DNA from: Hygrocybe punicea
Lineage: Eukaryota > Basidiomycota > Agaricomycetes > Agaricales > Hygrophoraceae
Length of the DNA stretch: 64,000 bases
Assembly: GCA_963556145.1 (NCBI GenBank)
Contig: OY744470.1
Location: 4,464,001 to 4,528,000 of the forward strand
Direction of reading: 5' to 3'
The first letter of the stretch is position 1. Each line of letters starts with the position of its first letter. The notes below the pieces were generated by a model. The model did no database searches. It was given only the letters and a program-made list of their open reading frames with translations, and was not told the origin of the DNA. A program made the position numbers and the translations under genes. Shown here in pieces: positions 9,933-60,789 of this stretch.

Positions 9933-12900
9933 TCAAAATTGTTCCCACAGTTTCAAAAAATTGTTCCCACGGCTTGGCAAATTAGAGTGTGACCCTGAGT
10001 TTGAGAATCCACCGTATAGAACGATTCCCTTATAGGGACTCGTAACTGTCTTGGTGTTTTTCACAATCGGAACAACATTGTCTGGCAGAGAAGGAATCTG
10101 CACAAGCTTTGGTGGATTCAGAAGCTCAACGAACACTTTGTCCAGTACACGCTTTCCATGATCAGCTTTTGATGACTGCCAACCAACAACAAATCCTTCT
10201 TGTCCCTTGGTAATGCAAAGTTCAGTTGCATCATGGTTTCTAAGCATGACTGGCATTCCAACACACAAGGATAATTTACCAGCAAAATTTTCTGTTCCAC
10301 CATGGTGCACCTTCCATATTTCTCTTTGAGTATCAAAGTCTATCTCACCAGATTCATGAAGTGCTTTTGATTTGCCTTTTGATTTATTTCTTATAGATGC
10401 ATCCTTTTCCTTTCCCCATCTATCAATAGAATAAAAGTTGATTAATTTCTGGTTTGTGTCTTTTGCAAATCTTTCACAGCCAAGCAAATTGATCTGATCC
10501 TTTTGAGAGTGAATGCCGCAGATGATTGGGACATTTCTGAAATTCTTAGAGGCAACATTAGGTTGATCAGGTCTTTTTCCTGCAATCCGACTTCTCAAAA
10601 ATATAATGTCATTTGGAGTACACTTTCCATATCGCATATTGACCAATGCAGTTCTGAACTTTGCATCTTGGGGAGTTTGAGTCTTTTGTCTCATGTTTTC
10701 TCTGAGAATAACAACTGTGGTTACCTGATGCCAAAGCGCTTTGCCAACAGCGGTTTCCTGAGCATATGGTGTTAATCCAGAATGTGCTTGTGTACCAACT
10801 GTTCCACTATACAATGCTGATCCTCCAACAGGTGGCAATTGTGCAAAGTCTCCAGCAAATATCATGTTTATCCCACCAAATGGCAGGTCATGAATGTTTG
10901 TTGCTTTAGCAAGTTTGGCACTGATTTTATACAAGTCATGGCAAGATATCATTGAAACCTCATCAATGAATATGTAGTCAACTCCTTCTAATCTGCCCTT
11001 GAGCTGAGCAATGTTGGTGGCTTCATTTTTGCCAGACGAGTTTGGATTAATGCCTAAGAAGTAATGATATGTGGAACCATTCTGTAATGCAGCCGATGTT
11101 CCAGTTGGACCAAGGATAACAAATTTGTAAGACTCATTTGCAGCTTTAAAAAAATCAACAACAGCTTTGATCACTTGTGATTTTCCAGTACCAGCCATGC
11201 CTCTAATATGCATTTTTAGTTGTTCACTACATGATGAAGCATGATTTGCAATAATTCTAAATGCCCTATCTTGTTCTGTATTCAAGTGAAATGTTTGAAC
11301 AGTAGTGTCAATCAACAGCTGTCTGTGTGCATTCTCTGCTTTGAAATTGTGCATAAAGTATGACTGGTCAACAACCATCACATTATTTTCATTGGGGTCT
11401 GAATATTGTTTGCCATGTTTATGTGACTTTGAAGGAATATTCTGGTTACGTTCTTCAAGAATTTGTTGTCTTTTGTCTTGAACTGCAGATTTCCATTGAG
11501 ATGCTGACTTATGCACTTCCACATCAAGTGGATTTATGTTCACTGCTACATTGCCTTCTGGACAGGCATCTAACCAACCCACGTTTCTAACAACATTTTC
11601 TGTAGATTCCATTTGTGCTTTGATCAATCTGCCATGACTTCCAAGGTCAGTGTATTTGTTTAGATGATATTCTCCATCTTGACCATCTTGACCATCTGCT
11701 GCATAATCTATGTCTTCACCATTTTGACCATAGTCATCATCCAGATGTGATATCATGTCTCCAGTCATAAACTGTGGGCATGTGCCATCTGGTAACATTT
11801 CACCCTTCTTGAGTTGTGCTGAAAAGTCATCTCTGGCATCATTGCATTCATATCTCAAATTAAAATGGTCCATTATTTGTATTTGTCTTTTGGTAAATTC
11901 GTGAGTGTCAAATGCTTCATCTCAAGATTGGTCCTCTAATTTCAAGTCATGACCGGATCTCCATGGTTTAAACAAGGTTAACATGGTTGTGCAATAATAT
12001 TCTCTATCTCCTCTGTCACGTCTGGGAAGTGAACCACCGATGAAATTTGGAACCAAATGATATTGTTCATGGAAGTTGATGCAATGTGTTTCATAAAGTG
12101 GATGATCTTGCAGGAACAATACGTGTTCTACATTGTCAGAATGCATACTGTCTGTTTCATCTGTGTAATCATCATTGTCTTGATCAAATAATATGTTATC
12201 CTTATCAATATTGAGATCATCAGAATCAACATCGGTTTCAGAATGAGTAGTAGTTGGTGCTCCAAAAAAACAAGCATTAGCTGAATCTTGTAATGCTGGC
12301 TCTAAAAGTAATTCATCTTCACTGTGAATTTCATCGTGAACTATTTTTCTTTCGATTTTAACTTTTTTGGCACATTGAATCCATTCATATAGATTGACAT
12401 CCTCAAACATTTGAGGTCTGTAAATGTAATCATGCACCATTGATGTTCCAACAAAAGTGCCTTGCTGATTTCAGAGGACTACTCTGTCTGGCTCACTTGA
12501 CATTTCCGTATCACCATCTGTTTTCCAAGCATTCAACACTTCTCTGACATAATTTTTCCAATACACAGGAATAAACTTGTGGCTGGTGTAATGATCAGGA
12601 TTCCCCAGCAAATATAGAGCTGACATGGGTCCACCTATTTCCAGTTTGGCTGTTAATGTATTGATAATTTGTGTTATTAATTTTCTAGCTTTTTCTTTTC
12701 TCTGCATTGACCCACTAAGCATCTCAGAATTTCTGTCAAATACACTTCTGATAGTATCAAATATGCTATAAGTTTTCAGCCCTGGTTTGGTTATATAGTC
12801 AGATATGTATGCCAAAATGGCCTTGATAGCTGTGCCAGATAGAAGACTTGTGATATCAGTGTTGCAATGTAATAGAAATGTTACAAGTGGGGTTAATGTG

Positions 12901-13769
12901 TTGATCCATGCTTCACCCTTTTTCACATTCAGTGCACCGGTCTTTGGGTCAACTTGAGTAGATTCAAACAATGGTCTTGGAAATCTAGCTTTGCATTTCC
13001 CATGTTTGTTCATGCAGGTGGGTCTGTCTTTTCTGTTGACTTTCTCAGCATTAGACTTGTATCTACCACAATTATGAACATTGGAGTGAAGTATCAAATC
13101 ATCCACAGTGTTTCTGAATCGGTTCCACCATGACTCAACATTCTTGCATTCATTGCATTCAGATTGATCATTCAAGTCTTTGTGTTTGACATTGCACAGA
13201 GGAGGTGGCATTTCAGGCAAGATTTGAGTTGGATTTTTGTAATCTTTTTTCATGGATTGAGCATTTACTTTGGCTGTTACTTCATCAATTGTGCCAGTCA
13301 TAAATTCACCAATATGAACACTTTCAAGATATTCAACAAATCTTTTTTGAAAGTCTGAGTTGGAATCCATGATTCTATCTCTGATCTCTTGTGGCGACAA
13401 GCATGCTTTGAGCCATAACATCATATGCATATGAAGAGTTAATCGTCCTTGCTGTTCAACAGCACCATAATATGCATGTGTATCCCCATAAATTCCAGAG
13501 TGATTTGATCCAGCTCCGAGCACATGTTTGATAAATAACTTAACCATAAAATGAAAGAATCTTGCACCAGCCACAGGATTTTGGGCAATAAGTCTGTATC
13601 TCTCATCGTAGTCTCGCAAGTTTGGGGAAAACTCCTCTTTGGTGTCAGCAAAATATAAACATAGTGGATGCATGATATCTGCAGGTGAAAAGGTGATAAA
13701 CCAAGATGGGGCCCCACAGAATGACATCAGAGCCCAGATTTCATTTCTCATATATTTTTTATTTGTCAA
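9933..13769 (-). pseudogene. Helitron Rep endonuclease - Pif1-like helicase
   Basis: The protein would nick and unwind DNA for rolling-circle transposition. The Rep part shows the HUH motif LHMHMMLWLK and the tyrosine pair AYISDYITK (Y-x-x-x-Y). The helicase shows Walker A GMAGTGKSQVIKAV and Walker B YIFIDEVSMIS, then further SF1 helicase blocks up to ELCITKGQEGFVVGW. The frame is continuous from 13769 except for TGA codons at 12471-12473 and 11922-11924. The second replaces the Trp of the matching S-W-D-E-A-F in Helitron 2. The junction to ORF1 at 13766-13769 has lost a few codons (Helitron 2 has DHVGSHVKGSLTSKKY there) and changes frame. Family assignment is secure; activity is unlikely. 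Confidence 0.9.
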
Positions 13770-16645
13770 AGATCCTTATACACATGGTCAATGTCTTTGA
13801 TCAGCTGGAAACAAAGCTTTTCCTCATCAGTGTCAGGTTTGACATGTACACCCTCTTCTATCTTTCTGGAGATGTAATTCAGAACACCAACATCGACATC
13901 CATGAGCCTCTGGGATATCTGATCAAACTTTGCTTTCTCAGCCAATAAATAGCCTCCAGTAGTTGCCTGTTTGATTTGTTCATGATTAAATGCAATCAAT
14001 GGAAAGTGTGGGTCTCTCTGAAAACGCTTGTCATAGTACATTAACAAATGTCTTTTATGTGCAATATCAGACAGAGATCCTTGCTTTATATTATTTCCAA
14101 TACCACCAAGTCCATATGGAAACAGCCAAGGCATCATTTGTGGAAATAACTGTGGGTTGCCATAGATTGACTGTGGATCTTTGTCATGTCCAATAGCAAG
14201 CACCATGCGGTTGCTCTTCAAATGTTTCAAAGCAATGGCCTTTAATGCTTTGACACTCTTGGTTGAATATTCCTCACCAGTCAAGCCATGAACAACAAAT
14301 GGACATTTGCCAGTTTCTGTTCCTTCTTCAGTTTCCATATCATGAACTGCAGTTGATTCTGGACTTTTGTTGGTGAATGACTGGCGGTAATCAACAACCA
14401 CTGGTATATCATTTTCAGGATATTGATTTAAATTCTCTTGCGATATTTCCAAGTCAAAGTAATCACAGTGATTTAACTTTAGCCAATTCAAAGCATTGGC
14501 TACTTTGTTTCTCCTAACAAGCAGAGGTGTTCTTTCAAAGTCAGACTTGGTTGGTTTGCATGGACCAGTGTAAATAAAGGCCAGAACTTCATCTAATTCA
14601 TCAGCTGGAGGTGGCAAAATATCATATAGTTTTGGAACTGGATTTGCAAATGTAATTACATTGGCTCTCATCTTGTGCATGCCTGAGGAGACTCTGACAA
14701 TGCATCTATTGTGTCTAACCCTTGCAATTATCAACTGTTCAGCATATGATAGATTTTGTAAAGCTGCTGGCACATCACCAATCCACAGACCATTTGCAAG
14801 TGCATGAAGAGGTTGTTTTCCATTCTTCAATGACTTTTGACATGAATTGCATATATTATCTAAACTATCAATTAAAATGGGTTTATCAATGTCTTGCATT
14901 GGATTTTCAACTGAAAATCTTTCTTGTTGAGTAGCTGAAGCTTGTATTAACAAAGTTAAATCTAAATCAAGTGAGGATAATTGTGATAAATTTTGAACAG
15001 TTGTTAATCGTCCACAAACTGCACAACCTGCTTCTGTAAATTCATTTGGACTACTTTCTCTACAAAAGTTTGATATAATAGTGTGTTGCAAGGATTGAGA
15101 TGGAGGTAAAGGAGGAAATTCTTCTTTGTCTCTGTAGGACTGTGCTGCAATTTGATTTTGCTGTTTGTATTTGTCAGGATTATTGTGACGAAAATTTTGA
15201 ACTGCTTTTTGCTTAAAAAGTATATATTTCTCTGAATCCTCAGATGAATATCTTTGAACAGCGGCGAGGTTTTGTTGTTGAGATCTCTCTGGATGTTCCA
15301 AGCAATATTTTTGAACTGCTACAAGATTCTGTTGCTGGTATTTATGTGGATGTTCTGATTTATATCTGTTCATAGCTGCAATATTTTGTTGCTGATGTTG
15401 CTCAGGATGTTCCAATTTATATCTTTGAACAGCTGCATTATTTTGTTGCTGATGTTTTTCTGGGTTTTCCAAGTTGTATCTTTGAACAGCTGCAATATCT
15501 TTTCGGTGATGCTTCTCATGATGTTCCAAGTTATGTCTTTGAACAGCTGCAAGATTTTGTTGCTGATGTTTTTCAGGGTTTTCCGAGTTGAATTTTTGAA
15601 CAGCTGCAAGATTTTTTCGGTGATGCTTCTCAGGATGTTCCAAGTTATGTCTTTGAACAGCTGCAAGATTTTGTTGCTGATGCTTCACAACATTATTTTT
15701 ATTGTATTTTTGAACAGCGAAAAGATTCTGCTGGTAATATTTGTCAATGTTTTTATTGTGTGATCGTTTTACAGCTTCAATGTTAGCTGTACTCTTTTTC
15801 GCCAGTATCTCTAGCTCATCTGTAAACTCAAATACTGAAACATAAGAAGAACAGTCAATGCACTTGTGATTTACAATTTCAGTTTGAATTTCTGCATGTT
15901 TCATTTTTGCTGGCAAATAAATGGAATGACACGCAGCAATGAATTTAAGATTTGCAATGGTTAATTTGTCAACTAAAATTGCTAGTGAAATGTCCAATAC
16001 TATAAGAAAATCATTAGAAAAATTCTGAAGAGTCATATCCTGCTTAGATATGTATGATTTAAATGTATAACGTCCTGTTTTTCCTTGATGAAGTGGAAAA
16101 GATTTTAATCCAAGTTCTGATATGGTAAAAACAGGTTTTTTGCCACCACCCACATATGTCCTAGATATATGATTGTCGTTATCAATATTTCGAGATGATA
16201 TGGCTATATCATGGAAGTCAAATGGCTTTGCTGCTTTGCTCAGCAATAATATCCAAGTAGCAAAATGCCAGGCTATGGTCCCTATACCAAACCATAATAT
16301 AGTATACTGCAAGAATAGTATAGTTGACATAAAATACCCTGACTGAGATAACAAAGAACCTATCATTGCTTTGCATTGACCAGACAGGGATAATGATGCA
16401 TTCAACTGTTTGAACAGAGAAAACGACCCACCCAACTGTCTGGGCAGAGAAAAGGACACGCCCAACTGTCTGGGCTGTGAAAACGACACGCCCAACTGTC
16501 TGGGCAGAGAAAAGGACACACCCAACTGTCTGGGCAGAGAAAAGGACACGCCCAACTGTCTGGGCTGTGAAAACAATATGCCCAACTGTCTGGGCAGAGA
16601 AAAGGACACACCCAACTGTCTGGGCAGAGAAAAGGACACACCCAA
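13766..16645 (-). CDS. Helitron N-terminal region (Helitron-like N protein) with peptide repeats
   Basis: An open frame of 959 codons. The N-terminus is ten-residue repeats of the type LGVSFSLPRQ, produced by the 30-bp minisatellite at 16424-16660. A hydrophobic stretch follows. The middle carries about ten 19-residue repeats of the form NLAAVQRYNLENPEKHQQQ, then a Cys-containing unit (AGCAVCGRLT, ICNSCQKSL), which is usual upstream of Helitron Rep domains, and the conserved YDILPPPADELDEV and HLLMYYDKRFQ blocks. In an intact element this part is normally fused to Rep; here the fusion is broken at 13766. The true start is uncertain because the repeat array may be non-coding. Confidence 0.75.
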   Translation of the reverse strand: MGVSFSLPRQLGVSFSLPRQLGILFSQPRQLGVSFSLPRQLGVSFSLPRQLGVSFSQPRQLGVSFSLPRQLGGSFSLFKQLNASLSLSGQCKAMIGSLLSQSGYFMSTILFLQYTILWFGIGTIAWHFATWILLLSKAAKPFDFHDIAISSRNIDNDNHISRTYVGGGKKPVFTISELGLKSFPLHQGKTGRYTFKSYISKQDMTLQNFSNDFLIVLDISLAILVDKLTIANLKFIAACHSIYLPAKMKHAEIQTEIVNHKCIDCSSYVSVFEFTDELEILAKKSTANIEAVKRSHNKNIDKYYQQNLFAVQKYNKNNVVKHQQQNLAAVQRHNLEHPEKHHRKNLAAVQKFNSENPEKHQQQNLAAVQRHNLEHHEKHHRKDIAAVQRYNLENPEKHQQQNNAAVQRYKLEHPEQHQQQNIAAMNRYKSEHPHKYQQQNLVAVQKYCLEHPERSQQQNLAAVQRYSSEDSEKYILFKQKAVQNFRHNNPDKYKQQNQIAAQSYRDKEEFPPLPPSQSLQHTIISNFCRESSPNEFTEAGCAVCGRLTTVQNLSQLSSLDLDLTLLIQASATQQERFSVENPMQDIDKPILIDSLDNICNSCQKSLKNGKQPLHALANGLWIGDVPAALQNLSYAEQLIIARVRHNRCIVRVSSGMHKMRANVITFANPVPKLYDILPPPADELDEVLAFIYTGPCKPTKSDFERTPLLVRRNKVANALNWLKLNHCDYFDLEISQENLNQYPENDIPVVVDYRQSFTNKSPESTAVHDMETEEGTETGKCPFVVHGLTGEEYSTKSVKALKAIALKHLKSNRMVLAIGHDKDPQSIYGNPQLFPQMMPWLFPYGLGGIGNNIKQGSLSDIAHKRHLLMYYDKRFQRDPHFPLIAFNHEQIKQATTGGYLLAEKAKFDQISQRLMDVDVGVLNYISRKIEEGVHVKPDTDEEKLCFQLIKDIDHVYKDL

Positions 16646-16660
16646 CTGTCTGGGCAGGGG
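16424..16660. repeat. 30-bp minisatellite, ~8 copies
   Basis: A direct repeat with unit cccaactgtctgggcagaga plus aaaggacacg, with two alternating variants (gcagagaaaagg and gctgtgaaaacg). It lies at the 5' end of the Helitron 1 frame and stays open in all three minus-strand frames because 30 is divisible by three. Confidence 0.9.
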
Positions 16661-16731
16661 GAAAAGTGTCTGGCAAGTAATATTAAACCAATCTGCTAAA
16701 CACGGTGAAGTACTTAGTACATTCAGTAGAT

Positions 16732-17001
16732 CTAGAGGTAGTTAGATTTACTGACTGAATCCCTCCCAAAGCAATTGGCTAACTCCATAAACATTTTTAC
16801 TGGTTTTTCCATCGATGTGAGCTTCGGCAGACAACCGCTAACATAAATCAAATTAGTAATGGAAATATGTTGAATCCTGATATAAATAGGACCTGTGGGT
16901 GATTCAATTGTAATAGAATGGTCAGCAACACAAGTAGCAGTAGGATAAAGCTTTTGAACGTCATAGGGATGTAGTTCGAGTTGAGACAAAAGGTTTTTCA
17001 A
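16732..17001 (-). other. small open frame of unknown nature upstream of Helitron ORF1
   Basis: An 89-codon frame beginning MKNLLSQLELHPYDVQKLYP. It has ordinary amino-acid composition and no motif I know. It lies between Helitron 1 and the H3-tail gene and could be a 5' exon of either or a captured fragment. Support is weak. Confidence 0.25.
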
Positions 17002-17185: not shown

Positions 17186-18793
17186 TTACAAAGGGCAGTC
17201 ACGAATTAACCACTGTCCACCGAAGAACTCACCACCCAACCAGTGAAGTTCACCACCTAACTGACTGAAAGTCAACTGATGTTTACACCTACTGCAGGTT
17301 ACCACTATGTCCGACCGTTTTTGAGAAAACGACCATGTTCGAATTCGGCCACAACCGGAGCATTGGGGGGGGACCTCTTGTCCCCATGGGTGGATTTGGG
17401 GGTGGCACCAAGTGTAACGAGTGCCCTTGACGCTGTCGTTAGAAAATTGGACGTACACTATGTCTGTGTGGCGACCGATTGAAAAAACGGTGGGGACGGT
17501 GTCCCGGATGGCAAGATCGAATGGAAATCGTTCGACAAGGTTTCTTTGTGCCATGCTGAGGGTGAAGTTCGTAATGAGAATGGGTTGAAACTTAGTTGCC
17601 GTAAATGCAACCAAATTGTTGAATTTAAAACTTAGGACAAAGTGAGCAACTCAGTTGAGAAAAACAAAAGACAAAAAACTTACTGCTTCACCACCCCAGC
17701 CAAGTCCTGGTAGCTTCGAGGCATCTTGACCAGGGCACCACATGACATGACCCAAAGGGTCACATCCCTCTCCCGAAGAAAGTTTGCGACCCTTCGCGGG
17801 ATCAGGAGGTCAAAAAACTGATATTTGATACAGACAATTAGAATAAGGATGCCACGACAAAGAAAGCTCACCTCCATCACAGAAGTACACAATTTCGGAC
17901 CGATAAATAAATCCCCGGTTTCATCATGTGAATGCGTGGTTATGAAAATTACAATCCGAGATGAGCAGTGTCTAATTATGATAAGTAAATGGAGCAAAGT
18001 ATGCAGTACAAATAAACGTACTGGTATTGGCTGCAAATTTCGGCAACCCGCTTTGCATGCAGTTCCACATTTGAATCATCGGCAAGATCGAATTCCACCT
18101 CAGCAAACCGGAGAGCAGACTCGGCAAGAAATCCTGACATGTAGGATGCGAGGACAGTAGCAGGGGCACCAGTGTTAGATGTCCCAGAGAGCACAAAGTG
18201 CACGATCAAAAGGGTGTCATGGGACACCTGGGAGTGGGCGTGCATTTGAAATCTGCTGGTGATTTGGACGGGAGACGCGATCGCAGGGATATGAGCGGTG
18301 GGATCGAGGGAGTTGTTGACGTACGCAGGACCATTCAAGACGTAGAGGGCCTAAGTCGTTCATTAGTCTTGGTTACGATTAAATAAGTAATATACTCACA
18401 TGGTAGGGCTCACAATGACGGCCTGTAAAATTCGATTCATGGCATGACGGGCAGACGAAGATGGAAGGTATCACAGCCGGATTGGCATGGATGTCCACAC
18501 ATGATTCACAGACTGACCATGGACAGTACTCACAGACCATGAGCAGTCCACCGTTCAGGCAGATGTAGCAAAACTGTGAGAAGGTCAGTTACAGGTGAAA
18601 AACGTTTTAAAAGGTAAGCACAGATGTCATTCTTGCCATCAGAGGGTGGGGGGGGCAACGGAGTCGCAGAGTCAGAGGACACAACGAGACGGACTGCTGG
18701 AATGGAAGCCGGTGCAGTTTTCTCAGTTTTGTCAGATTTTCGGGGAACAACACCACCAGTGGAGTTCTTTGCGGTTTGTTTCGTGCGGGGCAT
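17186..18793 (-). CDS. histone H3 tail mimic - PHD-like finger - CHAT/caspase-like - zinc ribbon protein
   Basis: Six exons: 18793-18622, 18573-18400, 18350-18022, 17971-17872, 17817-17684 and 17630-17186, with introns of 48-54 nt and phases that agree from exon 2 on. The first ATG gives MPRTKQTAKNSTGG, nearly the H3 N-terminus (R2, T3, K4, Q5, T6, S10, T11, G12, G13, R17 and K18 kept; K9 and K14 lost). Exon 2 encodes FCYICLNGG...CEYCPW..CESC...CPSCH, a PHD-like Cys/His finger. Exons 4 and 5 give IVIFITTHSHDETGDLF (~230-246) and VTLWVMSCGAL (~285), the spacing of a His/Cys dyad of caspase/CHAT proteases. Exon 6 has PPQCSGCG...CSRCKHQ, a zinc ribbon. Joining exons 1 and 2 at the best sites leaves the finger one base out of frame; a one-base change in the 8-G run at 18648-18655 would mend it. 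The domain names are inference. Confidence 0.7.
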
Positions 18794-19499: not shown

Positions 19500-20112
19500 A
19501 GCCTGGAAGGATGGCCGTCTAGGCCATGGAAGGCGTGATCGTGCAGTCTGTGCACAATCCGCTTCCACCCTTCCAAAACCAACTGAGGGGATGGCCGACT
19601 GGGCCACGGAAGGCATGGTCGTGCAGTCTGTGCACGGCCCTCCTCCAGTCCCGGACGTTATTTATGGCAGATGTCACAGAGGGTGGCCATCTGGGCTGTG
19701 GGGGTTGTGATCACGCAGTCTGTGAGCGGTTCACCTCCACCCTCTCAAAATGATTGAAGATTGGTTGAGGATATCATGGAGGGTGGTCATCGGGGCCACG
19801 GGAGTTGTGATCGTGCAGTCTGTGCATGATTCACTCCCACCCTCTCATAATGTGTATCCGTGCCCCTGCTGGTCATGCCCCTGCTGGTCGTCTCTCGGGA
19901 CCCTTCGATGACTCAAGACCGGGACTTCGTCGGATTTCCGCTGAGATGCATCAGCAGAAAGTGAGCTACCCAGCTACATGGCCTAACAAGCAGTCACTCT
20001 GGACCCATGGATAGCCTGAGCATGGGCTGTTCCGGACCTCCACTGAGACTAGCATGTACTAAATCGTGACTTGGGGGGATGGCCGTCTGGGCCGTGGGGG
20101 TTGTGATCGCGC
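19500..20112. repeat. tandem repeat, ~95-110-bp units, left part
   Basis: Units contain ggatggccgtctgggcc, gtgatcgtgcagtctgtg and cacctccaccctctcaaaa. They are interrupted at 20112 by the LTR retrotransposon and resume at 29894. The middle (19850-20060) holds an unrelated stretch between units. Confidence 0.8.
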
Positions 20113-20906
20113 TGTAAAGGCGAGGTCGGGGTGGCTGCGGAATAATAATCCTAAGCCTGTGGGGTCAGCGTAGAAGTGACTAGGAATAGTCTAACAAGCT
20201 TCAGTAAGATAATAGGATATAAAAGGTAAGAAGCTGCCGAGTAAACTACTGAAATCTATCGAGACCGATTGAAGCCGACGAAGCCGACGATGTCGGGTAC
20301 GGCGGGTCGGGTGTCGGGTGACGAGAAACGTAGAGATTAAGACGGTAGAAGGACGGGGAGAGCGTCGAGGAAACCGACGAGTAGTATGTGCAATGGATTT
20401 TACTGAGAGACTAATTCTCAGAGAGAGGAAACGGGGGAACTGGTTTCTTATTATGAGACGGCGCTTGGGCACCGTTTTTATACTACAAATTTCTGTACCT
20501 AGATTCGGACGAGAGTCCTCAGCTGATGAGAGGAAACAAAGGAGAATAAAAATGGGGAAGTAGGAAGAGCGTTGCGAGGCGACGATGACAGGGAAAATGG
20601 GTGGAAGATATAAAAAACCGTAAAAGATGCAAAATACTTTACTATATCCCCATAAGGGAGACGCTAGGCGTGAATAAGGCAAGTCCGATGTCGGGATCCC
20701 AGTCCGATGAGATCTATCTTTGATATTTGAAGTTCCGCGAGTTTAGGAGATAGACCAACCAGGTACGTGAGCGGCCGTGCTAGTCGGTATGCATCGGGTT
20801 GCGTTGGGTTGCGTCGGGTTCGAACGTAGATTGCTAGAGACGTCGGGTTCGAGTGGATTCGCTAGATATCGATGTTACGGCCTCAGAGGGTCGAGGACCC
20901 TCTACA
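20113..20906 (-). repeat. 3' LTR of the Ty3/gypsy element
   Basis: 794 bp, starting TGTAAAGGCGAGG and ending CCCTCTACA on the + strand. It differs from the other LTR by cgagg/caagg, gacggtag/gacagtag and the double change cagctgatg/cggccgatg. All four are CpG transitions. The purine-rich stretch just inside it (minus-strand AAGACCCAAGGAGA, 20907-20920) is a candidate polypurine tract. Confidence 0.95.
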
Positions 20907-21077
20907 TCTCCTTGGGTCTTCTAATAGAGACCATCCGTGGTCGAGAATATGGGGTCTCTGAATGCGGGTCGCGAATGTGGCCAATCACGTGAGCGGCCAA
21001 ACAATGGCAAAGTAAAAAAAGATAAAAAAATTCTCGTTGTTGATCCGACCTTTCCTCTACACCATCACACGTTCACA

Positions 21078-22321
21078 ATGTCCCAAGTCTACAACAACTT
21101 CCTCGCCTTCGTCGAAAGCATCGAACCCGATGTCTGGGCGGACTACAAAGAGGCCGTCAACGCGGTCACCATGTTTCATAGCGACGACCTCGTAACGATG
21201 GTGGACGGCAACGAGGGGATGGCCCAACAATGGTTAAGCGGCCGCAAGAAAGCGCTGGTGAGTTTCCTTATTGACTACGCGTGTCCTAAGATAGCTCATG
21301 TCGTCCCGCCAGCGTGCTTATAATGGAATCGTCGCGGAACTCCGAGCTGGTGGTACGAGGCCAGTAACGCCACCGTTATGGGCCGACCGCCAATCGTACG
21401 CCAACGATGTCGAAGAGTGGCTGAAAGAAGCGGCGGACCGAGAGAGGCAGGAAAAGGAAGAAGCCAGATGGCGGGCGGATGAAGAAGCGGCTACGTGGGA
21501 AGAGGAGGCCAGACGGATGGCAGAGGCAAATGCACGAGCGGAGGCGGAGAAAAGGCGAAAGGCAGCAGAGGAAAGGCGAGAGCGGCTTAGAATAGAACAA
21601 CACGAGCAGCACTGGAATCAAGAAGCGGACCGGGTTGAAAGGGATGGAGCCGCGTATCGGCGGCGGCTCAGCGAAGAACGGCGAGCTGAAGCAAACGCAT
21701 CGGTGAGTTCCTGTGTTGGTTCCTTTGTTCTTTAGTCACTGATCCTGGTAATAGTTCACCGGGCCGTTTCCCCTACAACCCTGCACCAACTGCGTCAAGG
21801 CTCAAGAGGCGTGTCGAGGCATCACGGGCTACATGTGCGAATGATGCCGGAGGCTGAAGAAGAGATGTACTAACGCTACACACCGGACGGGCGGGGGTCG
21901 GCGTAAGGTGGATACCGGAAAGGGCAAAGAGGTTGCGGTCGGCACGAGGAAGCCGTTGTCATTCACGACAAAGCCCATCCGCAGTAGGCCTGCCCGGGCC
22001 TCAACGAGCAAACCGCGGGTCGAGGACGTGGAGTCGGTCGAGGACAATGACGAAGACGAGGAGGAGTCGGAGGAAGAGCAGCTGACGAAAAGGCTTAGGA
22101 CGGCCTCGGCAGCGAACCCGTTCGTTTTGACGATGGAAAATTACGAGCAAGTGTCGGCGCGGCTAGCGGTCCTTACGGAGGAGCTGGGAGCCCTGGGCAC
22201 CAACGTCAACCGTCACCTCGTCCACTTCGGTCAAGAGTTCCAGCGGCTTCGCGTCGATCTCGAACGGTCAACCTCAAGGTTGGCGATGTTGAAGCGGGAT
22301 TACGAGACCGGCCGCCTGTAA
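21078..22321 (+). pseudogene. antisense zinc-finger / coiled-coil gene inside the retrotransposon
   Basis: Three exons with good splice sites and agreeing phases: 21078-21257, 21313-21702 and 21755-22321 (donors GTGAGT twice). Exon 1 gives MSQVYNNFLAFVESIEPDVW, a compact helical domain. Exon 2 ends in a long Glu/Arg/Ala coiled coil. Exon 3 opens with CTNCVKAQEACR then MC-E-stop-CRRLKKRC, which reads as a C-x2-C / C-x2-C-x6-C zinc-binding cluster resembling fungal binuclear clusters, if the TGA at 21842-21844 was CGA. An acidic stretch (EDNDEDEEESEEEQL) and a second coiled coil follow. It runs opposite to gag-pol in the 3' region of the element. It is conceivably a regulatory or DNA-binding accessory protein; the function is not known to me. 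Confidence 0.65.
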
Positions 22322-22529
22322 AATATATAGAAAAAAATAACGAGCCCGTTGTGTATATAAAAAAATATATTGTGTACATAAAAGACGTGTCAGCTTGTTC
22401 ACCCAGCTAAGGAAAGCCGATCAGCTCCCGAAGACATAGGACTATTCGCATCATTCGTCATATCATTAGAAAACTAAGAGGAACTAAATAAAATGGGGGT
22501 ATAACGTGGACAGAATATAAATGAAATGC

Positions 22530-24209
22530 TTAATCGTCGTCGGGTGAGGAGTCTATAGAGGGTGGGTACGTCGGATCATCAAGATCGTTTGAATCGGTAT
22601 CGTTGGCATCGGGGTATTGTAAGAAGTCATCCAACGGTATCGATATTTCTGAGCGGGCGTGGTAGGGTACGACTCGGAAAGCGGCAAATCGAGATTTAGA
22701 AACCGCACCGTCGAGTTCGGCGAGTATGTAGGATCCGCCTTCTGTTTTCCTGACGACAACCATGGGTCCAAAGTACCGCGGTTTTGCTTTACGATCGAGA
22801 GACATTTCGATACGTGAATTTCGAACGAGAACGAGGTTGCCGGGTTCGAAGTCGAAAACTTTGATCGTGTTGGCGTATTTCTGCTCGAATTGCCAGGCGG
22901 ACGCGAGCCGAGATTTGGTAAGCTTTTCTTTGACCCGATTGAGGTCGGCTTCTCGTTTACGAAGTTGTCGGGCACGGATGACTATGAGGTCGGTCGTAGA
23001 CATCGTATCTTGCGTCGGAACCATGTACGTAGCTTCGGCAAAATCGAATGGAAAAAGCGGTTCTACTCCGTGTGCGATGTAGTAGGACGAGTATCCAAGG
23101 CTTTTGTGTGTCGTGACTCGTTCGGCCCAAAATACGGAGTGGGTTACGGTGTGCCATTTCTTTTCATCTCCGTCACAACTTTTCATAATGGCCTCCCGGA
23201 CATCTAGGTGGCGATGCTCAACGGGTCCATTCGCTTGTGAGTTATAGGGCGAAATGCGGATGTGGCGGATACCGTAGCGGGAGGCGAGATAGTCGAGCGC
23301 TTCTACGAACGGCTTGCCGTTGTCGGTAACGATTTCTTCGAGAGCGCCCCAATGGCATAAGATGTCTTCGAACAAGAACGTGCCGATGGTGGAGCCGGTC
23401 TCGCGGCGTAACATGCGGAACTCAGGGTAAGCGGACAGGGAGCAACGGGCTTGGACAATGTATCGATAGCCGCCGGATTGTGGCATAAACATTGTGTCGA
23501 CATACACTTTACGAAATAGTGAGGCCGGTGTAGCGACGGTGGGCAGAATGTGATGATAACGCATTTGCCGTACTTGGCACTGATGGCAAGACCGGACATA
23601 CCACTTGACGTCGTGGTCGAGGTGCGGCCACCAGAAACGGTCGAGTAGCCGAGCACGGACGGAGAATATACCTTTGTGGCCGAGAGAGTCGTGAGCGTCT
23701 TTGAGTAACTGAAGCCGGCGGTCGGGCGGTATGACGAGTTTGTGTTTTCCGTGATGGTCTTTGCGCCAAAGCTTGTTATCGGTGACGAAGAATTCAAGGG
23801 CATATCGTAAGAACAGACGGTATTCTTCGTCCGTGAAGTTCGCGGGTCGGGTTAGATCTCGTAACCAAGTCTCAACAAGAGCAAGACGAGCGTCAGCCGC
23901 GCGGGCTTTATCGGATTGCGGTATGTCAGAAACAGCTTCCTGATTTGTGTAGACGAGGACGGCGGGTAATTCTTGGAGTCGGTCGGCTGTGGCACGGCAG
24001 CGGCCGCATACGGCAATCGGCTTAGACGGTATGGGGACGGGTCGGTAGTTGACGACTTCCATAAAGAAACTGTAGGAGTGGTCGAGCCAATCGTCGGAAT
24101 CGTTGATCTCCTCGGGGTCTTCTGCAGCGCGGGGACGTTGGGAGAGTCCGTCGGGTGCACCGTGTGCGGAAGCGGGTACGTGAACGAGTCTAAAGTCAAA
24201 TAAGAGCAC
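22530..24209 (-). CDS. Ty3/gypsy integrase region of pol
   Basis: The integrase inserts the cDNA copy. It shows the HHCC zinc domain (LGHKG...FWWPHLDHDV...CHQCQ), the catalytic DDE triad as VDTMFMP, TDNGKPF and GPVEHRHLDVREA, and a C-terminal SH3-like DNA-binding part (FEPGNLVLVRNSRIE, KPRYFGPMVV). It continues in the same frame from the RT region across the TGA at 24222-24224. Its acidic tail ends at the stop at 22530. Confidence 0.93.
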   Translation of the reverse strand: MLLFDFRLVHVPASAHGAPDGLSQRPRAAEDPEEINDSDDWLDHSYSFFMEVVNYRPVPIPSKPIAVCGRCRATADRLQELPAVLVYTNQEAVSDIPQSDKARAADARLALVETWLRDLTRPANFTDEEYRLFLRYALEFFVTDNKLWRKDHHGKHKLVIPPDRRLQLLKDAHDSLGHKGIFSVRARLLDRFWWPHLDHDVKWYVRSCHQCQVRQMRYHHILPTVATPASLFRKVYVDTMFMPQSGGYRYIVQARCSLSAYPEFRMLRRETGSTIGTFLFEDILCHWGALEEIVTDNGKPFVEALDYLASRYGIRHIRISPYNSQANGPVEHRHLDVREAIMKSCDGDEKKWHTVTHSVFWAERVTTHKSLGYSSYYIAHGVEPLFPFDFAEATYMVPTQDTMSTTDLIVIRARQLRKREADLNRVKEKLTKSRLASAWQFEQKYANTIKVFDFEPGNLVLVRNSRIEMSLDRKAKPRYFGPMVVVRKTEGGSYILAELDGAVSKSRFAAFRVVPYHARSEISIPLDDFLQYPDANDTDSNDLDDPTYPPSIDSSPDDD

Positions 24210-24221
24210 GCCGGCTATCCA

Positions 24222-26078
24222 TCAGTTGATCGTTGCATTGGGCTGAATGTCGGGGTTGTTGAGCATCCCTTTTATGTACTTCGCGTCGACTTCAACAGTG
24301 AGGTTGCGGACGCCGATGATGAAGATTTGGTAGGCGCGGAGGGCCCTGAAGAGGCCGTAGAGTTCGAGCTTGGACTGGGAGTATCGGGCTTCGCGTTCGT
24401 TCCACGATATTGAACCAAAGCGATTCGGATAACGTTTTCTGTCAGCACGGATCTGCATGAGAACGAAGCCGACTCCAAGGACGGATGAATCAACGGCGAG
24501 AATCACTTCCCATTCACGCGTGTAGTCAATAGCGCGCAGCGCTGGCGATGTAATGACGGCGTTTTTGAGGTAGTCGACGGCGGTCTCTTCTTCTTCACCA
24601 AATTCGAAGGGTATACCTTTGCGGGTAAGACGGACGAGGGGTCGGGAGTGGAGCGAGAAGTCCTTGATAAAAATACGCAAGACGCCGCAGATACCGAGAA
24701 AGGCGCGAACTTCGGTGAGGTTGGTCGGCAGTGGCCAATCGCGAATCTTCTGTACTTTGGAGTCGTCGGCTACTCTTCCTTCGTATGTGCATCGGTGGCC
24801 AACAATGATGACTGAGGGTCGACACAACTCGAGTTTTTTGCCGTTGAAGGTACCGCCGACATAGCGGAAACGCTGAATGACGTGGTTGACACCTTGGAAG
24901 TGCTCCCAAATGAAACGTCGAATTGCTGGGTTCTCGGGTATAGTCTCGTAGGTACCGTCGGGTTGCTCGTAACGGGTTGGAGGCCCTTTGACGGGAATAT
25001 CGTCCATATACGGAACGGCAAGATGAGGGATTTCGTCACGGAGGATGTACGTGGAGTCACCGTGTAGGATCTGCGGGGAATTTGTGTATCCCATAGCAAT
25101 CCGCGTAAGTCGAAGCATTCCGAGTGGAGACTGAAAGGTCATATAGTCCCGAGACGAGGGGTGGACGAGGTGTTGGTCGAAAGAGACGAAGAGGTCGAAG
25201 GAAGCGTAGCAAGAGTGGCCGCCAAAGGCCTCGGCCAAGTGCTCGGTCATGGGCGGTATGGCGGGATCGCGGATAGTGACGGCGTTAAGCGGCTGTAGAT
25301 CGTGGACGATTCGAAGAGACTTCCCATCCTTTTTCAAAACGCAGAACCAGCGGGAGCGGTATGACGAATTCGAGGGTTCATAGGTACCAGCGTTAATTTT
25401 GTCTTTGATGATGCCAATGACTTCGTTAAGGATGCCGGGTGGGATTGGGATATTGCGATGGACCCACAGGTCGTGCGGTACGGTGGGAATGTGAATCGGC
25501 GGGAAGTAGTCTGTATTGAACTGGCCTTTCTCGGATTCGTTCCAGGCGAAGGCGGCTTCTTGCGTTTTGATGATATGGTGGCCGAGTTTTTCTTCCTCAG
25601 GCCAAAGGAATCCATCCGAGTTCATCGGCATCGCGTCGTGTCGTTCCTGGGTATAGCGGGTGCCGGGTGTAAAGTCGGGCGGGTGAGTCGGGAGCGTGGG
25701 TAAATCGGCTAGCGGGTCGCCGGTGATCTCGCGTATGATACGGTATTCGTCGGGGAGAGTGGTAGAAATTGGGCGGATACGATCGGCTACCTTCTTATAC
25801 TTTTTCTTGGTAACAACTCCTTTTAGGTCCCTGGTAGGGGGTGTGGTATACGAGATATAAGTAGCGTGTTCAGTAGAGGCTTTGTTACAAATATTTGAAG
25901 AAGAAATATGTGACGCAGGAGCGGAGACGGAACAAGACGAAGGAGGGGTATCGGTAGTACGTAGCTGATTTTGTACATCGGTCAACAATGAAATGTACTG
26001 GGCGGCAGTCTGAGGCTGAGACGAAGAGAAATCTAAATCGATAGAAAAACATAAGTCCTCTTCTAGGGGAAATGGCAA
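24222..26078 (-). pseudogene. Ty3/gypsy reverse transcriptase - RNase H region of pol
   Basis: It copies the RNA genome and degrades the hybrid RNA. RT blocks are LRIVHDLQPLNAVT, YASFDLFVSFDQ, SPLGMLRLTRIAMGYTNSP and the catalytic YMDDI. RNase H begins near WEVILAVDSSVLGVG. The frame stops at TGA 24222-24224 within PNATIN-stop-WIAGV. In related elements this position is Arg (INRWIAG), so CGA to TGA is very likely. The upstream join to the protease region needs a shift of frame at about 26180-26187 (see findings). Confidence 0.9.
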
Positions 26079-26179
26079 AAGGGAAGCATAGTTCGTGGTA
26101 TAGGTGTGGTCGCTTTCGAGTGGCGGCTTCTCATCTCCTGGTGCGTCCTTCCCGAGAGGTATCTCCAGGTCCTCGACTT

Positions 26180-27946
26180 CTAAAAATCCGGTTTTCCGGT
26201 GTCAGACCGCTCTCGTTGGTTCTTTTGGTTGTGCTCGATGGTGGGCAAGGTGACGACGGCACTGGTGTTTGGATCTGTGATCGTGACTTGTTGTTCTCCG
26301 TTTTTATAATCCTTCGTAAGGGCCTCGGAAAGCGTGAAGAATGGGCGGCCGATGAGGATCTCGTAGGGGGTGTCGTCGACGACTTGGACTTGGAGGAAAA
26401 GATCAACGTCGCCAAAAGTGAATTTTAGGTTGGCGATCCGGCCGAGGGTGTCGTTGTCGCTTTTATTTGCCGACTGCATCCGCATCTTCATATTTTGGAG
26501 GCCGTAACCGAGTTTCTCCCAAATATCGCGCCGCATGCCGATGATCATGGAACCGTTGTCGAGGACGCACTCGAATACGAATTTGCCGTTGATGAGCGGG
26601 TAGACCGCACGGAGAGGGACTGAGTCGCGGCCGACGACGAGCGGGACGTTTTCCTGACAGTGTTGACAAGCGCGAGTGGGGATTTCGGGTGCGTGAAAAT
26701 GGAAGACCTCGACGTTGTTACTCTCGGTGGTGACCTTTTTCGACGTAGTGAGGTCCTTCATGTGACGGCGGGCGTCGGACGACATGGCTAAAAGTTCTCG
26801 CTGCGAAATGCAGACTTGAGAATCGAGCGCACGGTCGATGACGGATTTGGCGATACCGGGATCTTCGATGGGGGCTTGGTAGCGGTATTGGGGGTGCGAT
26901 GCGGGAAGGTTCTGGGGAGTGCGCGGTACAAGGGCGGTCAGCTTGGTCGGCCACATGTTCGAAGGGGGGACTATGGTGATCGGCTGCTCGTTGATAGGTC
27001 TGGCCATTTTCTCGGCGGGTTTCACGGCGGGGACGGACGTGGAAGTGGCGGGCAGATTGGGAAACGTTTCTCTAGACTTGCCTTTCGCCTTAGAGGGGAT
27101 CTCTACGCCGTCAAATCTAACCCATTTACGAAGCCGCTGCACTTCGGCTTCCAGAACCTTGATTTGTTCGTTGTCGTTGTCGATGTCGGACGTCGTGGAC
27201 TGAAAGATGTCGGCATACTCGGTGGTGACCTCTGGTTCATAGGTGGGTACTTCGACGGTGGAGACGAAGTGAGCTTTGACATGAGGCGGCGGGTCGTGTT
27301 GGAACGGTTCTGTGGGGTTACGGGCAGGGGGAGCACGGTTGCCGGGGTTCTGTGCGTGCCACGCGTCGAAGCGTTCCCTCATATTTTTGCCAACGATAGC
27401 CTTTGGAAGATACATTCCGTTAGGCAACACGATGCGGCCGTGCTCGTTCTTGCCGCATATTCCGTCTCGAGTGTACTGCTCGCAGATGGGACAATCGCGT
27501 ATACGATGGAACGGGTCGTCGCAAAAGAGGCAGTTGAAGTTGGTGAAACCCTGTCCCGCGGTGGTCAGCTTAGTCCTATTTGCACACGGCTTTGGGGGGT
27601 TGTTACGTTCGGTGAGGGCTTGCGTGAGGACGGCGGGTTGTTGCGAAACGAGACGAAAGAGGTCAGATACGTTAGGTTCGACCGGTTCCACTTTAGGAAT
27701 GACCGGGTCATAGCGAGCAGGTGGCGGGTAGCGGGTGGCAGGTTCTATTGGAGTCGAGTACCGGATGGCGGCAGGCGACGTTGACGATAGACGAGAGACG
27801 GTGGACGGTTCGGCCGCGGTTCCGGCCAGCAGGAAGTGGGCGCAATTGTGGAAGTCCTGGAAGTCGTAAGGGTCGCTATGGAAATGGTTCGGCTTTTGGT
27901 ACTGCAGACGGTGGAGTGGTACCGAGGTACCACTCCGGGGGCTCAC
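26180..27946 (-). CDS. Ty3/gypsy gag C-terminus and aspartic protease
   Basis: A zinc-knuckle-like CLFCDDPFHRIRDCPIC is at about residue 140. Later comes a retropepsin-like region with FECVLDNGSMIIGMRRDIW, in which the catalytic Asp-x-Gly reads D-N-G, and EILIGRPFF, the C-terminal flap of these proteases. The N-terminal FHSDPYDFQDFHNCAHFLL matches the end of the capsid region. The frame is the same as that of the gag exon above (28597-28040), but stops lie between them (27947-28039). Confidence 0.85.
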   Translation of the reverse strand: MSPRSGTSVPLHRLQYQKPNHFHSDPYDFQDFHNCAHFLLAGTAAEPSTVSRLSSTSPAAIRYSTPIEPATRYPPPARYDPVIPKVEPVEPNVSDLFRLVSQQPAVLTQALTERNNPPKPCANRTKLTTAGQGFTNFNCLFCDDPFHRIRDCPICEQYTRDGICGKNEHGRIVLPNGMYLPKAIVGKNMRERFDAWHAQNPGNRAPPARNPTEPFQHDPPPHVKAHFVSTVEVPTYEPEVTTEYADIFQSTTSDIDNDNEQIKVLEAEVQRLRKWVRFDGVEIPSKAKGKSRETFPNLPATSTSVPAVKPAEKMARPINEQPITIVPPSNMWPTKLTALVPRTPQNLPASHPQYRYQAPIEDPGIAKSVIDRALDSQVCISQRELLAMSSDARRHMKDLTTSKKVTTESNNVEVFHFHAPEIPTRACQHCQENVPLVVGRDSVPLRAVYPLINGKFVFECVLDNGSMIIGMRRDIWEKLGYGLQNMKMRMQSANKSDNDTLGRIANLKFTFGDVDLFLQVQVVDDTPYEILIGRPFFTLSEALTKDYKNGEQQVTITDPNTSAVVTLPTIEHNQKNQRERSDTGKPDF

Positions 27947-28039
27947 GCAGGACTCGAGGGAAAGGTCGACTGGATAGGAAGGATGGACTGACTACTACAT
28001 CTGGAAGGCTACTAACTAGGTCAAACCGTGGGAACCTGA

Positions 28040-28597
28040 TCACGTGACTGACCAGGCACAACTACTACAACGGGTTTTGATGTCCTTTTTAAGCTCGACA
28101 TGGAAGCCGTTCTCGTACGCGATGTTGCGTTCTCGGGGAGAGATCCGACCCTTGTCTAGAAGAAACCCTGAGATCCGGATGAACTCGCGGTAATATTCGC
28201 CAAGTTCGGCGCGGGTACGGATACCATAAGCGGTTTGGGTGTGCGTAAGATGGTCGAGATCCGCCATAGTGTACCGGTGATCGTCTTCCGTGCCCGGGTA
28301 TAGCACGAGTACGCTCCTTTTGAATGCGGCATAATCGACGCCGGTCGCGCTAGGTAAACTTGCCCAAAGCTCGTAGTCGCTAAGCGACGCGTAGCGCAGA
28401 CTATGCTTGATGCGTCCTGCGTCGTCGAGAGCGGCATCGGCAGCAAGTATCTCGACTTCTTCGAAGAAGCGGTTTAAATTGAGCGGGTTCCCGTCGAAGG
28501 TCGGGGCCGTGGAGTGACCGCGAGCGGGCATTTGTCGTGGAGTAACATGGGGAGCGGTAACGTGGGGAGTGGTCGAAGATCCAGAGGTCGAAGTCAT
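28040..28597 (-). CDS. Ty3/gypsy gag N-terminal (capsid) region
   Basis: It begins MTSTSGSSTTPHVTAPHV and contains FDGNPLNLNRFFEEVEILA, the usual capsid start of these elements, and YRYTMADLDHLTHTQ-like text. It stops at 28040 after KDIKTRC, in a stretch (27947-28060) that does not look coding and contains a palindrome (ggagtggtaccgaggtaccactcc), so a small insertion may have cut gag. Confidence 0.75.
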   Translation of the reverse strand: MTSTSGSSTTPHVTAPHVTPRQMPARGHSTAPTFDGNPLNLNRFFEEVEILAADAALDDAGRIKHSLRYASLSDYELWASLPSATGVDYAAFKRSVLVLYPGTEDDHRYTMADLDHLTHTQTAYGIRTRAELGEYYREFIRISGFLLDKGRISPRERNIAYENGFHVELKKDIKTRCSSCAWSVT

Positions 28598-29079
28598 TGT
28601 GGGTGGAAGGAGCTGAGATGTCGATGAAGCGGTTGTCGGGTGTACGATGAGCGGGTCGGGTAACGTGGGCGATGATGGCGTGGACGAAGACGAAGACGGG
28701 GACGATGACGATGACGGAGTTTTCGATGTCGAGAGCGAAGACGTGGACGGGGGTTCTAACGAGGTCGAAGTCGGGGACGTAGGCGATGCGGGTGTCGAAC
28801 TGAGATCGGATGAGTCGGGTGTGATGGTAATTATCGGTATATCAACCGATTCGAGACTGTCGGATGAAAGATATAGGGGGGGTGTTTGACCCTGAGACGA
28901 GCGGGAGGTTGTTATGTCGAGCGAGGTGGTCGGGTACTAGCTGGAAGAAGTCGTCGTCGATTGTCGGGTCGAAGGCGGCTAAAGAGAGTTCTTGTTGAAG
29001 AGTTCTTCGAGGAAGATCTCGAAGACGACGGTCAGAGGGAGGGATACGGGAAGAGGAAGCTATGGTGGTGCTAGACTAT
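28598..29079. other. gag leader, low-complexity GAC/GTC-rich
   Basis: Untranslated leader between the 5' LTR and gag. The + strand carries a run of gatgacgatgacggag-type triplets that is open in several frames but has no protein character beyond repeated Asp/Glu/Val. No gene is proposed. Confidence 0.4.
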
Positions 29080-29097
29080 TCCTCGCGGTGGGCTCCA
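29080..29097 (-). promoter_or_regulatory. candidate primer-binding site
   Basis: Two bases inside the 5' LTR the minus strand reads TGGAGCCCACCGCGAGGA. The leading TGG fits the CCA end of a tRNA primer. The tRNA identity was not determined. Confidence 0.6.
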
Positions 29098-29099
29098 GA

Positions 29100-29893
29100 T
29101 GTAAAGGCAAGGTCGGGGTGGCTGCGGAATAATAATCCTAAGCCTGTGGGGTCAGCGTAGAAGTGACTAGGAATAGTCTAACAAGCTTCAGTAAGATAAT
29201 AGGATATAAAAGGTAAGAAGCTGCCGAGTAAACTACTGAAATCTATCGAGACCGATTGAAGCCGACGAAGCCGACGATGTCGGGTACGGCGGGTCGGGTG
29301 TCGGGTGACGAGAAACGTAGAGATTAAGACAGTAGAAGGACGGGGAGAGCGTCGAGGAAACCGACGAGTAGTATGTGCAATGGATTTTACTGAGAGACTA
29401 ATTCTCAGAGAGAGGAAACGGGGGAACTGGTTTCTTATTATGAGACGGCGCTTGGGCACCGTTTTTATACTACAAATTTCTGTACCTAGATTCGGACGAG
29501 AGTCCTCGGCCGATGAGAGGAAACAAAGGAGAATAAAAATGGGGAAGTAGGAAGAGCGTTGCGAGGCGACGATGACAGGGAAAATGGGTGGAAGATATAA
29601 AAAACCGTAAAAGATGCAAAATACTTTACTATATCCCCATAAGGGAGACGCTAGGCGTGAATAAGGCAAGTCCGATGTCGGGATCCCAGTCCGATGAGAT
29701 CTATCTTTGATATTTGAAGTTCCGCGAGTTTAGGAGATAGACCAACCAGGTACGTGAGCGGCCGTGCTAGTCGGTATGCATCGGGTTGCGTTGGGTTGCG
29801 TCGGGTTCGAACGTAGATTGCTAGAGACGTCGGGTTCGAGTGGATTCGCTAGATATCGATGTTACGGCCTCAGAGGGTCGAGGACCCTCTACA
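29100..29893 (-). repeat. 5' LTR of the Ty3/gypsy element
   Basis: 794 bp, 790 of which are identical to the LTR at 20113-20906. A 163-codon open frame exists in both copies but is incidental to the LTR. Confidence 0.95.
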
Positions 29894-30080: not shown

Positions 30081-30238
30081 ACCCCTTCCACCCTTCACCT
30101 TTAGGGTACAGCTTTAAATATTTTGAAATCATAATATTTCTTGAAGTCGTGTTTTTTTTCATTAAATAACAAGTTGGCCCATCACGTGACCTGTAAAAAA
30201 GTTTTCTGCTGTTCAAGTCAGACCGCTATACCAACGCC

Positions 30239-55300: not shown

Positions 55301-56090
55301 AAAGCTTGTTGAAAATCTGATTTTGGATCCATTATTCTATCTCTGATTTCCTGAGGTGACAAACATCCTTTGAGCCATAGTAGCATGTGCATGTGAAGTG
55401 TGAGACGTCCTTGTTGCTCTACTGTGCCATAGTATGCCTTGGTGTTGCCATAAAAGCCAGAATGGTTTGATCCAACACCAAGAACATGTTTGATAAATAG
55501 TTCTACCATAAAGTGAAAGAATCTAGCACCAGCCACTGGATTTTCTGCAATCAGTCTGTACCGCTCATCATATGCTCTAAGCTCTGGTGTAAAGCTTTCT
55601 TTGGAATCAGCAAAATATAAAGACAGTGGATACATGTTATCAGCTGGTGAAAATGTGATAAACCATGAAGGTGCTCCTACAAATGACATCAGAGACCACA
55701 CTTCATTTCTCATGTATTTTTTGCTTGTGAGTGATCCTTTGACATGACTGCCTACATGATCAATATCTTTAATTAATTGAAAACATAGCTTCTCTTCATC
55801 TGTTTCTGGAGTGACATGTTCACCATCTTCCATTTTTCTAGCAATGTTATTCAACACTCCAAGATCAACATCCATCAATCTTTGTGAAATGTGGTCAAAT
55901 TTTGCTTTTTCAGCTAATAAATAGCCAGCTGTTGTAGACTCCTTTATTTGCTCATGGTTGAATGCAATTAAAGGAAAGTGTGGATCTTTCTGAAACCACT
56001 TGTCATAGTACATTAACAAGTGTCTCTTGTGTTTGATTTCTGAAATCTTTCCTTGAATCAGTGAATTGCCAATCACTGCTGACACCGCAC
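52260..56090 (-). mobile_element. Helitron 2, truncated at both ends
   Basis: A Rep-helicase frame of nearly 1,260 codons (56148-52321), closely related to Helitron 1 along its length. It lacks the whole ORF1 part: similarity begins only at IGNSLIQGKISEIKHKRHLL (near 56080). A TAA at 52321-52323 (KAIH-stop) and loss of the helicase C-terminus mark the 3' side. Confidence 0.88.
52321..56090 (-). pseudogene. Helitron 2 Rep - Pif1-like helicase
   Basis: Rep HUH motif LHMHMLLWLK and Tyr pair AYVSDYMTK are intact, as are Walker A GMAGTGKSQVIKAV and Walker B YIFIDEVSMLS. No stop interrupts the frame from Rep to helicase motif VI-like LRENMRQRTQT, so it is better preserved than Helitron 1. The N-terminus is replaced by unrelated sequence and the C-terminus is cut at the stop at 52321. 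Confidence 0.92.
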
Positions 56091-56148
56091 TATTTTGCAG
56101 GATGCAAAATGATTGCAAAATGATTGGAAGCTTGTTAAAGTTTTGCAT

Positions 56149-60646: not shown

Positions 60647-60789
60647 GCAGAGCTAATGAGGCGAAAGCGGTGGTTCTTGGCAACTCAGATGAGGGAGTAT
60701 GGCTCGGGAAATAGAGCAAGAAGACCCGTCCTTGGATGCCAAAGCCACGTAACGAGGAATCCGGGAGGAGCACTGAGGTACAGGAAGTG

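Follow-up and report, generated by a model that had tools for sequence, protein, structure and literature searches.

Viral and cellular mimics of histone H3 are short H3-like peptides borne on otherwise unrelated proteins. Fungal DNA transposons, in turn, can carry accessory genes of the TET/JBP family; according to Kojima 2025 (PMC12730594), the carriers are KDZ, Plavaka and Helitron2 elements, Agaricus, Laccaria and Gymnopus transposons have very distant TET/JBP relatives, Agaricus bisporus has a TET-bearing Helitron2, and these transposon-borne genes are thought to counter silencing; for TET/JBP and KDZ the paper cites Iyer et al. 2014. Here we describe a 64,000-nucleotide stretch of the Hygrocybe punicea genome (contig OY744470.1, positions 4,464,001 to 4,528,000 of the forward strand; "the window" denotes this whole stretch) holding a gene, termed here the H3 mimic gene, whose product begins with an H3-like tail and continues with a PHD-like finger. 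By its neighbourhood it belongs, as an accessory gene, to a Helitron-type transposon of 17 kb. The mimic differs from the viral and cellular ones in that the H3-like peptide forms the very N-terminus, is encoded by a transposon and is joined to a finger of H3-reading type. As in the TET/JBP transposons of Kojima 2025, transposon and dioxygenase-like accessory gene occur together. Anti-silencing genes of transposons and histone mimics of pathogens are both known; a search of the open-access literature found no description of a transposon imitating a histone tail or of such a protein, Iyer et al. 2014 being a paper that could mention it, and passages of PMC4289320, on Pleurotus Helitrons, contain 'histone' and 'PHD' zero times.

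The predicted protein of the window copy, 449 amino acids in a single frame ending at 17186, starts with MPRTKQTAKNSTGGVVPRKS, which a PHD-like Cys finger follows; next come a stretch containing a conserved His and Cys and, last, a zinc ribbon (Table 1). The initial annotation had placed an H3-like tail at the first ATG, and this is borne out. Residues 2-19 of the window copy equal residues 1-18 of the H3 tail ARTKQTARKSTGG at 13 of 18 positions, rising to 15/18 in the copy L016 and 14/18 in the metagenome homologue P0004, and in a search of PDB sequences a profile built from 11 exon-1 sequences hits histone H3 at an E-value (E) of 1.6e-6, aligned from residue 1. A degenerate codon pattern for MP(R/S)TKQTA matches the window once and 100 shuffles of it not at all; across the 92-Mb genome it has 16 matches against none for the reversed control pattern, and the intact motif MPRTKQTA is present in 16 copies. 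Allowing any second residue gained just four sites, all MARTKQTA, and their first 14 residues identify these as H3 genes. As a control for chance, a set of 3,718 distinct 19-mers beginning at an ATG, drawn from the window and from the fetched loci without the four H3 loci, was scored against H3: the best 16 scores (49-74) all belong to members of the mimic family and the top unrelated score is 21. Given that no histone family appears in the Pfam listing for the protein at E up to 10, we regard it as a mimic of H3 and not as a histone. Replacement of both K9 and K14, as first proposed, holds for the window copy; other members keep Lys at position 9, and in the Helitron-linked subfamilies position 14 holds Val or Ile instead of Lys.

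Table 1. Features of the H3 mimic gene and its host element in the window
Feature	Position	Strand	Basis
Histone H3 mimic gene	18793-17186	minus	six-exon model from alignment of 16 copies
H3-like N-terminal tail MPRTKQTAKNSTGGVVPR	18740..18793	minus	sequence and profile match to H3
Exon 1: tail, then Ser/Pro-rich linker	18626..18793	minus	alignment of copies
Intron 1, 52 nt	18574..18625	minus	AT donor in window copy
Exon 2: PHD-like all-Cys finger (FCYIC..CEYC..C..C..CPSC)	18400..18573	minus	profile vs PDB; Pfam below cut-off
Exon 3: central alpha/beta region, first half	18022..18350	minus	exon model; low-confidence structure model
Exon 4: conserved His (THS), codon 17934-17932	17872..17971	minus	alignment
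Exon 5: conserved Cys (VMSCG), codon 17742-17740	17684..17817	minus	alignment
Exon 6: end of central region and CxxC..CxxC ribbon, ~17362-17284	17186..17630	minus	exon model
Helitron element 5' end (TTACGAGTTCTT...)	37000	minus	common to window and L017, flanks differ
Helitron replication-helicase region	10045..16741	minus	Helitron_like_N E 6e-26, PIF1 E 2e-22, DUF6570
Long terminal repeat (LTR) retrotransposon	20102..29388	minus	matched 300-nt direct repeats 20102-20401 and 29089-29388
Dioxygenase-like (putatively TET/JBP-like) gene, divergent from mimic gene	30190..31807	plus	recurrent exons; same element

Relatives with a tail, whose absence from other genomes would have refuted the initial annotation, exist at several depths. 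Loci of the wider family were collected through exon 6, independently of the tail. Besides the 16 genomic copies there is a fourth subfamily (L043-L045), with MARTKATAKKVTSGIAPRRT and similar tails; P0004, whose tail is different and still H3-like; and two diverged homologues, L057, starting MARTRQNAKKSTGAPSIRK, and L058, starting MAHTKQTSQKTTGQAAPH. The latter two share 25-27% identity with exon 6 and 21-24% with the core of the window copy, and are 20-27% identical outside the tail, yet have an H3-like tail nonetheless. Over the first 14 residues, the window subfamilies, L057 and L058 are 64-86% identical to H3. The 50% H3-identical tail of L071/L064 was not counted, because the score of L064 (MPKIKQTSRKS), 21, equals that of the best chance ATG; L072 and L073 have no readable tail, and viral contigs gave 24 pattern stretches and no relatives. 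Exon 6 also recovered decayed copies, starting MPRMKQTA, MPCTKQTA and MPHTKQTA. In L048, L049, L053, L054 and L055 the decayed tails have, for example, Cys or His where the intact one has Arg, and Met where it has Thr; such changes would be consistent with deamination of methylated DNA (CG to TG). In another assembly set a near-identical homologue, P0003, is predicted with TGA as Trp and through the first introns, apparently an artefact of the gene caller.

The same neighbours recur with the gene from copy to copy, and we therefore rejected the reading that it is a host gene. A complete element, L017, spans 17,092 nt from TTACGAGTTCTT to AAGAACTCGTAA and contains the mimic gene along with a Helitron replication-helicase gene and a dioxygenase-like gene in divergent orientation; the 3' end was observed in this copy only. 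From 10044 to 37003 the window matches L017 at ~99-99.9%, outside a 10.1-kb stretch with an LTR retrotransposon and a 1.5-kb insert. The retrotransposon, absent from L017, sits in the window between the mimic and dioxygenase genes, and at ~10045 the helicase region gives way to another Helitron-like element, whose 5' end (TTACGAGTCCCTATAAGGG) interrupts it. Helicase-region DNA lies downstream of 10 of the 15 other copies (L017, L009, L021, L014, L020, L010, L018, L011, L012 and L019). A Helitron helicase near L016 (L040) was considered as part of the same element and dropped, its strand being opposite to that of the mimic gene; given the helicase DNA shared by those ten copies, the odds of the Helitron reading are unchanged by it.

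Of 15 fetched copies, 13 have the N-terminal exon of the dioxygenase-like gene upstream (it was not found at L009 or L023), and the window has it too. A search with exon 6 yields 35 loci at 39% identity or above, and in 24 of them the C-terminal exon of the dioxygenase-like gene lies in divergent orientation within 25 kb, with one of these 24 and another locus having a dioxygenase in common; conversely, 22 of the 46 listed dioxygenase places have no mimic homologue within 25 kb. The stretch 31178-31804 has no Pfam match at E 0.1, a TET/JBP family profile included, and the gene is one that we take to be TET/JBP-like from a motif and from Kojima 2025, without profile support. At L057 (C1:2551293-2552485) the diverged mimic homologue stands tail to tail, 432 nt apart, with a dioxygenase homologue of 50% identity, and because of this pair the association of the two genes may be older than the Helitron arrangement. 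The locus goes beyond what was first annotated: it holds a transposon accessory gene that is often paired with a dioxygenase-like gene, within a family that is large and old and that includes KDZ-linked members without the tail.

The PHD-type Cys/His finger of the initial annotation is retained in kind and revised in detail. A profile of exon 2 matches 27 PDB sequences at E <= 0.001, among them CHD4, PHF21A/BHC80, ZMYND8, TRIM24, TRIM33 and TRIM66, with E from 5e-7 to 2e-4 (4.6e-7 for CHD4, two fingers summed). The fingers of CHD4, PHF21A, TRIM24/33/66 and ZMYND8, its best relatives in the PDB, are readers of unmodified H3K4. The window finger resembles them by sequence profile and differs in its metal ligands: in the 10 aligned rows all eight are invariant Cys (C8), the His of the C4HC3 type being replaced by Cys, so the PHD-type C4HC3 set is not found there, and the match of exon 2 to Pfam PHD (E 0.0096) falls below the cut-off. 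An H3-like tail and a finger of H3-reading type on a jumping gene suggest that the transposon uses imitation of host chromatin to avoid silencing.

How might such a protein act? Removal of the Met would leave the tail presenting P-R-T-K-Q-T-A where H3 has A-R-T-K-Q-T-A. Host methylases, demethylases and readers that act at the K4 end of H3 could then be recruited to, or titrated by, the tail in trans, while the finger would put the protein on nucleosomes with unmodified H3K4. The His/Cys region would be a possible effector of putative activity, the dioxygenase would act on DNA methylation, and together they would keep the transposon expressed. To this reading, that of a transposon accessory protein whose imitation of H3 acts on the host H3K4 machinery and counters silencing together with the dioxygenase, we assign a probability of roughly 0.5. 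A broader claim is more tentative and, in our judgement, falls short of even odds: that at least one fungal transposon superfamily has long encoded a true H3 tail mimic, treated as H3 by the host H3K4 machinery, alongside an H3-reading finger and a cysteine effector, and that with a DNA dioxygenase these form a two-armed anti-silencing cassette acting on histone and DNA marks. If true, the arms race between host and transposon would extend to the histone tail itself, the protein would offer a natural tool for H3K4 biology, and anti-silencing at two marks could be tested in fungi.

Several observations weigh against trans action on the H3K4 machinery. H3 readers might recognise a tail less well when its first residue is Pro and not Ala. 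The exon model leaves just 9 of the 16 copies with an open frame (window, L017, L021, L013, L010, L011, L012, L020 and L023), the remaining seven having stops or frameshifts, and two of the nine, the window copy and L017, have a mutated donor. Intron 1 starts with GT in 14 of 16 copies and with AT in these two, so that the join of exons 1 and 2, and with it the union of tail and finger on which the initial annotation relied, is doubtful in the window copy: either the splice is lost there or a weak site is used. For the family the join is well supported by the alignment. A GC donor was also tried and dropped, the aligned copies having GT at codon phase 0 in 14/16. In five copies (L013, L015, L016, L022 and L023) the 4.5 kb of downstream sequence fetched contains none of the helicase DNA, and a Helitron host for them is unproven.

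The pattern of constraint belongs to the same side. In five between-subfamily pairs the ratio of nonsynonymous to synonymous substitution rates is 0.11-0.34 for tail codons 2-19 and 0.06-0.37 for the other regions where computable; the whole protein appears constrained, and the tail, between close subfamilies, no more than the rest. The absence of any amino-acid change in codons 2-8 is a biased figure, because the loci were picked by that motif. Binomial comparison of tail and core identity in four pairs gives P values of 0.004, 0.04, 0.002 and 0.17 and is weak, since the sites are non-independent and the pairs were chosen. We read the deep comparison as speaking for the tail and the shallow one as neutral.

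Not all relatives have the tail. A KDZ transposase domain lies 2,154-2,170 nt downstream of at least 15 of 24 distant loci, a lower bound, as 150 of 429 KDZ candidates were scored. The KDZ-linked L041 and L042 (MPIITATTASKK), the two N-termini read, have no tail separable from chance, and neither do the related L059, L061, L062, L063, L065 and L067 (MPITTATTASKK); these too count against the proposed role. The KDZ-linked clade is multicopy, though without an H3-like tail. In a nine-row tree L041 groups with L057, L058 and L071, with support of 100 for the group and 68-70 within it, which makes loss of the tail in the KDZ-linked clade likely, short of proof. From the tails of the diverged homologues and the tailless KDZ-linked lineage, the tail reads as ancient: across long divergence some lineages have kept or regained it, and another lacks it.

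The main rival to action in trans is a lock in cis, which we consider unlikely, if less so than the other alternatives: the tail would sit in the PHD-like finger of its own chain, and its displacement by nucleosomal H3 or by K4 methylation would expose the His/Cys effector. An acidic residue directly before the first finger Cys is also present in PHF21A. The inferred spliced product of the window model has such a residue (NDFC), and NEFC is expected in L044 and L045; this, the finger profile and the presence of a tail and an H3K4me0-type finger in one chain would all suit a lock. The KDZ-linked clade, however, keeps the finger without an H3-like tail. That the tail is merely a signal for nuclear import or targeting, resembling H3 by chance, seems improbable. 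Karyopherins do bind H3 tails (PMC5677370), yet the likeness begins at residue 1 and R2 to T6 are spared, neither of which a basic import signal needs, and similar tails are found in diverged homologues.

More improbable still is a built-in pseudo-substrate, with the His/Cys region as a protease that clips H3 tails. All 9 aligned rows, P0001 included, have the His (THS) and the Cys, in caspase/CHAT-like order and after predicted strands; the Cys-bearing exon was picked by eye in L041, L057, L058 and L071, which makes these rows weaker evidence and leaves the window subfamilies and P0001 as the unbiased support. L043 exons 3-5 were modelled with AlphaFold from a translation that includes two introns and lacks the last exon; the model has a mean predicted local distance difference test (pLDDT) score of 43.5 and, at that low confidence, the order strand-helix-strand-helix-strand(His)-helix-strand(Cys)-helix. 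A caspase/CHAT fold would have such an order, as would other three-layer alpha/beta folds. Foldseek with this model found no match at E <= 0.001; among the best 50 matches listed, caspases stand at ranks 29, 30, 35 and 42 (E 0.17-0.21), with azoreductase, flavodoxin, LacI and Argonaute chains above them. Pfam and PDB sequence searches gave no caspase/CHAT match. The region is thus like the clan CD (caspase/CHAT) proteases in having a His and then a Cys, each after a predicted strand, and differs from them in lacking a sequence match or a reliable fold match; of the protease first proposed, the conserved residues in their order stand and the fold is a candidate, leaving protease identity a lead, not a finding. 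Recent, functionless capture of a host H3 exon is very improbable: H3 genes here do have an intron directly after codon 14 (STGG), and 35/42 nt are identical between the window tail and the nearest H3 copy, yet the likeness runs beyond codon 14 (APRK) with no intron there, and tails occur in lineages 20-27% identical elsewhere, that of P0004 being different but H3-like.

The C-terminal zinc ribbon of the initial annotation is present as CxxC..CxxC in exon 6, with Pfam Zn_ribbon_IS1595 reaching just E 0.062. Elsewhere in the window lie a second Helitron helicase open reading frame (52321-56154, minus), by eye close to that of L040 near L016; a Transposase_21 (tnp2) frame (58682-60652, minus; E 1.8e-14); and a Glu/Gly-rich tandem-repeat frame of 379 amino acids (EGEEGEEGLE; 37916-39055, plus). 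In L037 a further frame (4983-5450; DENNYSCAYDSILVILF...) follows the helicase and, from a motif, may encode an OTU-like protease.
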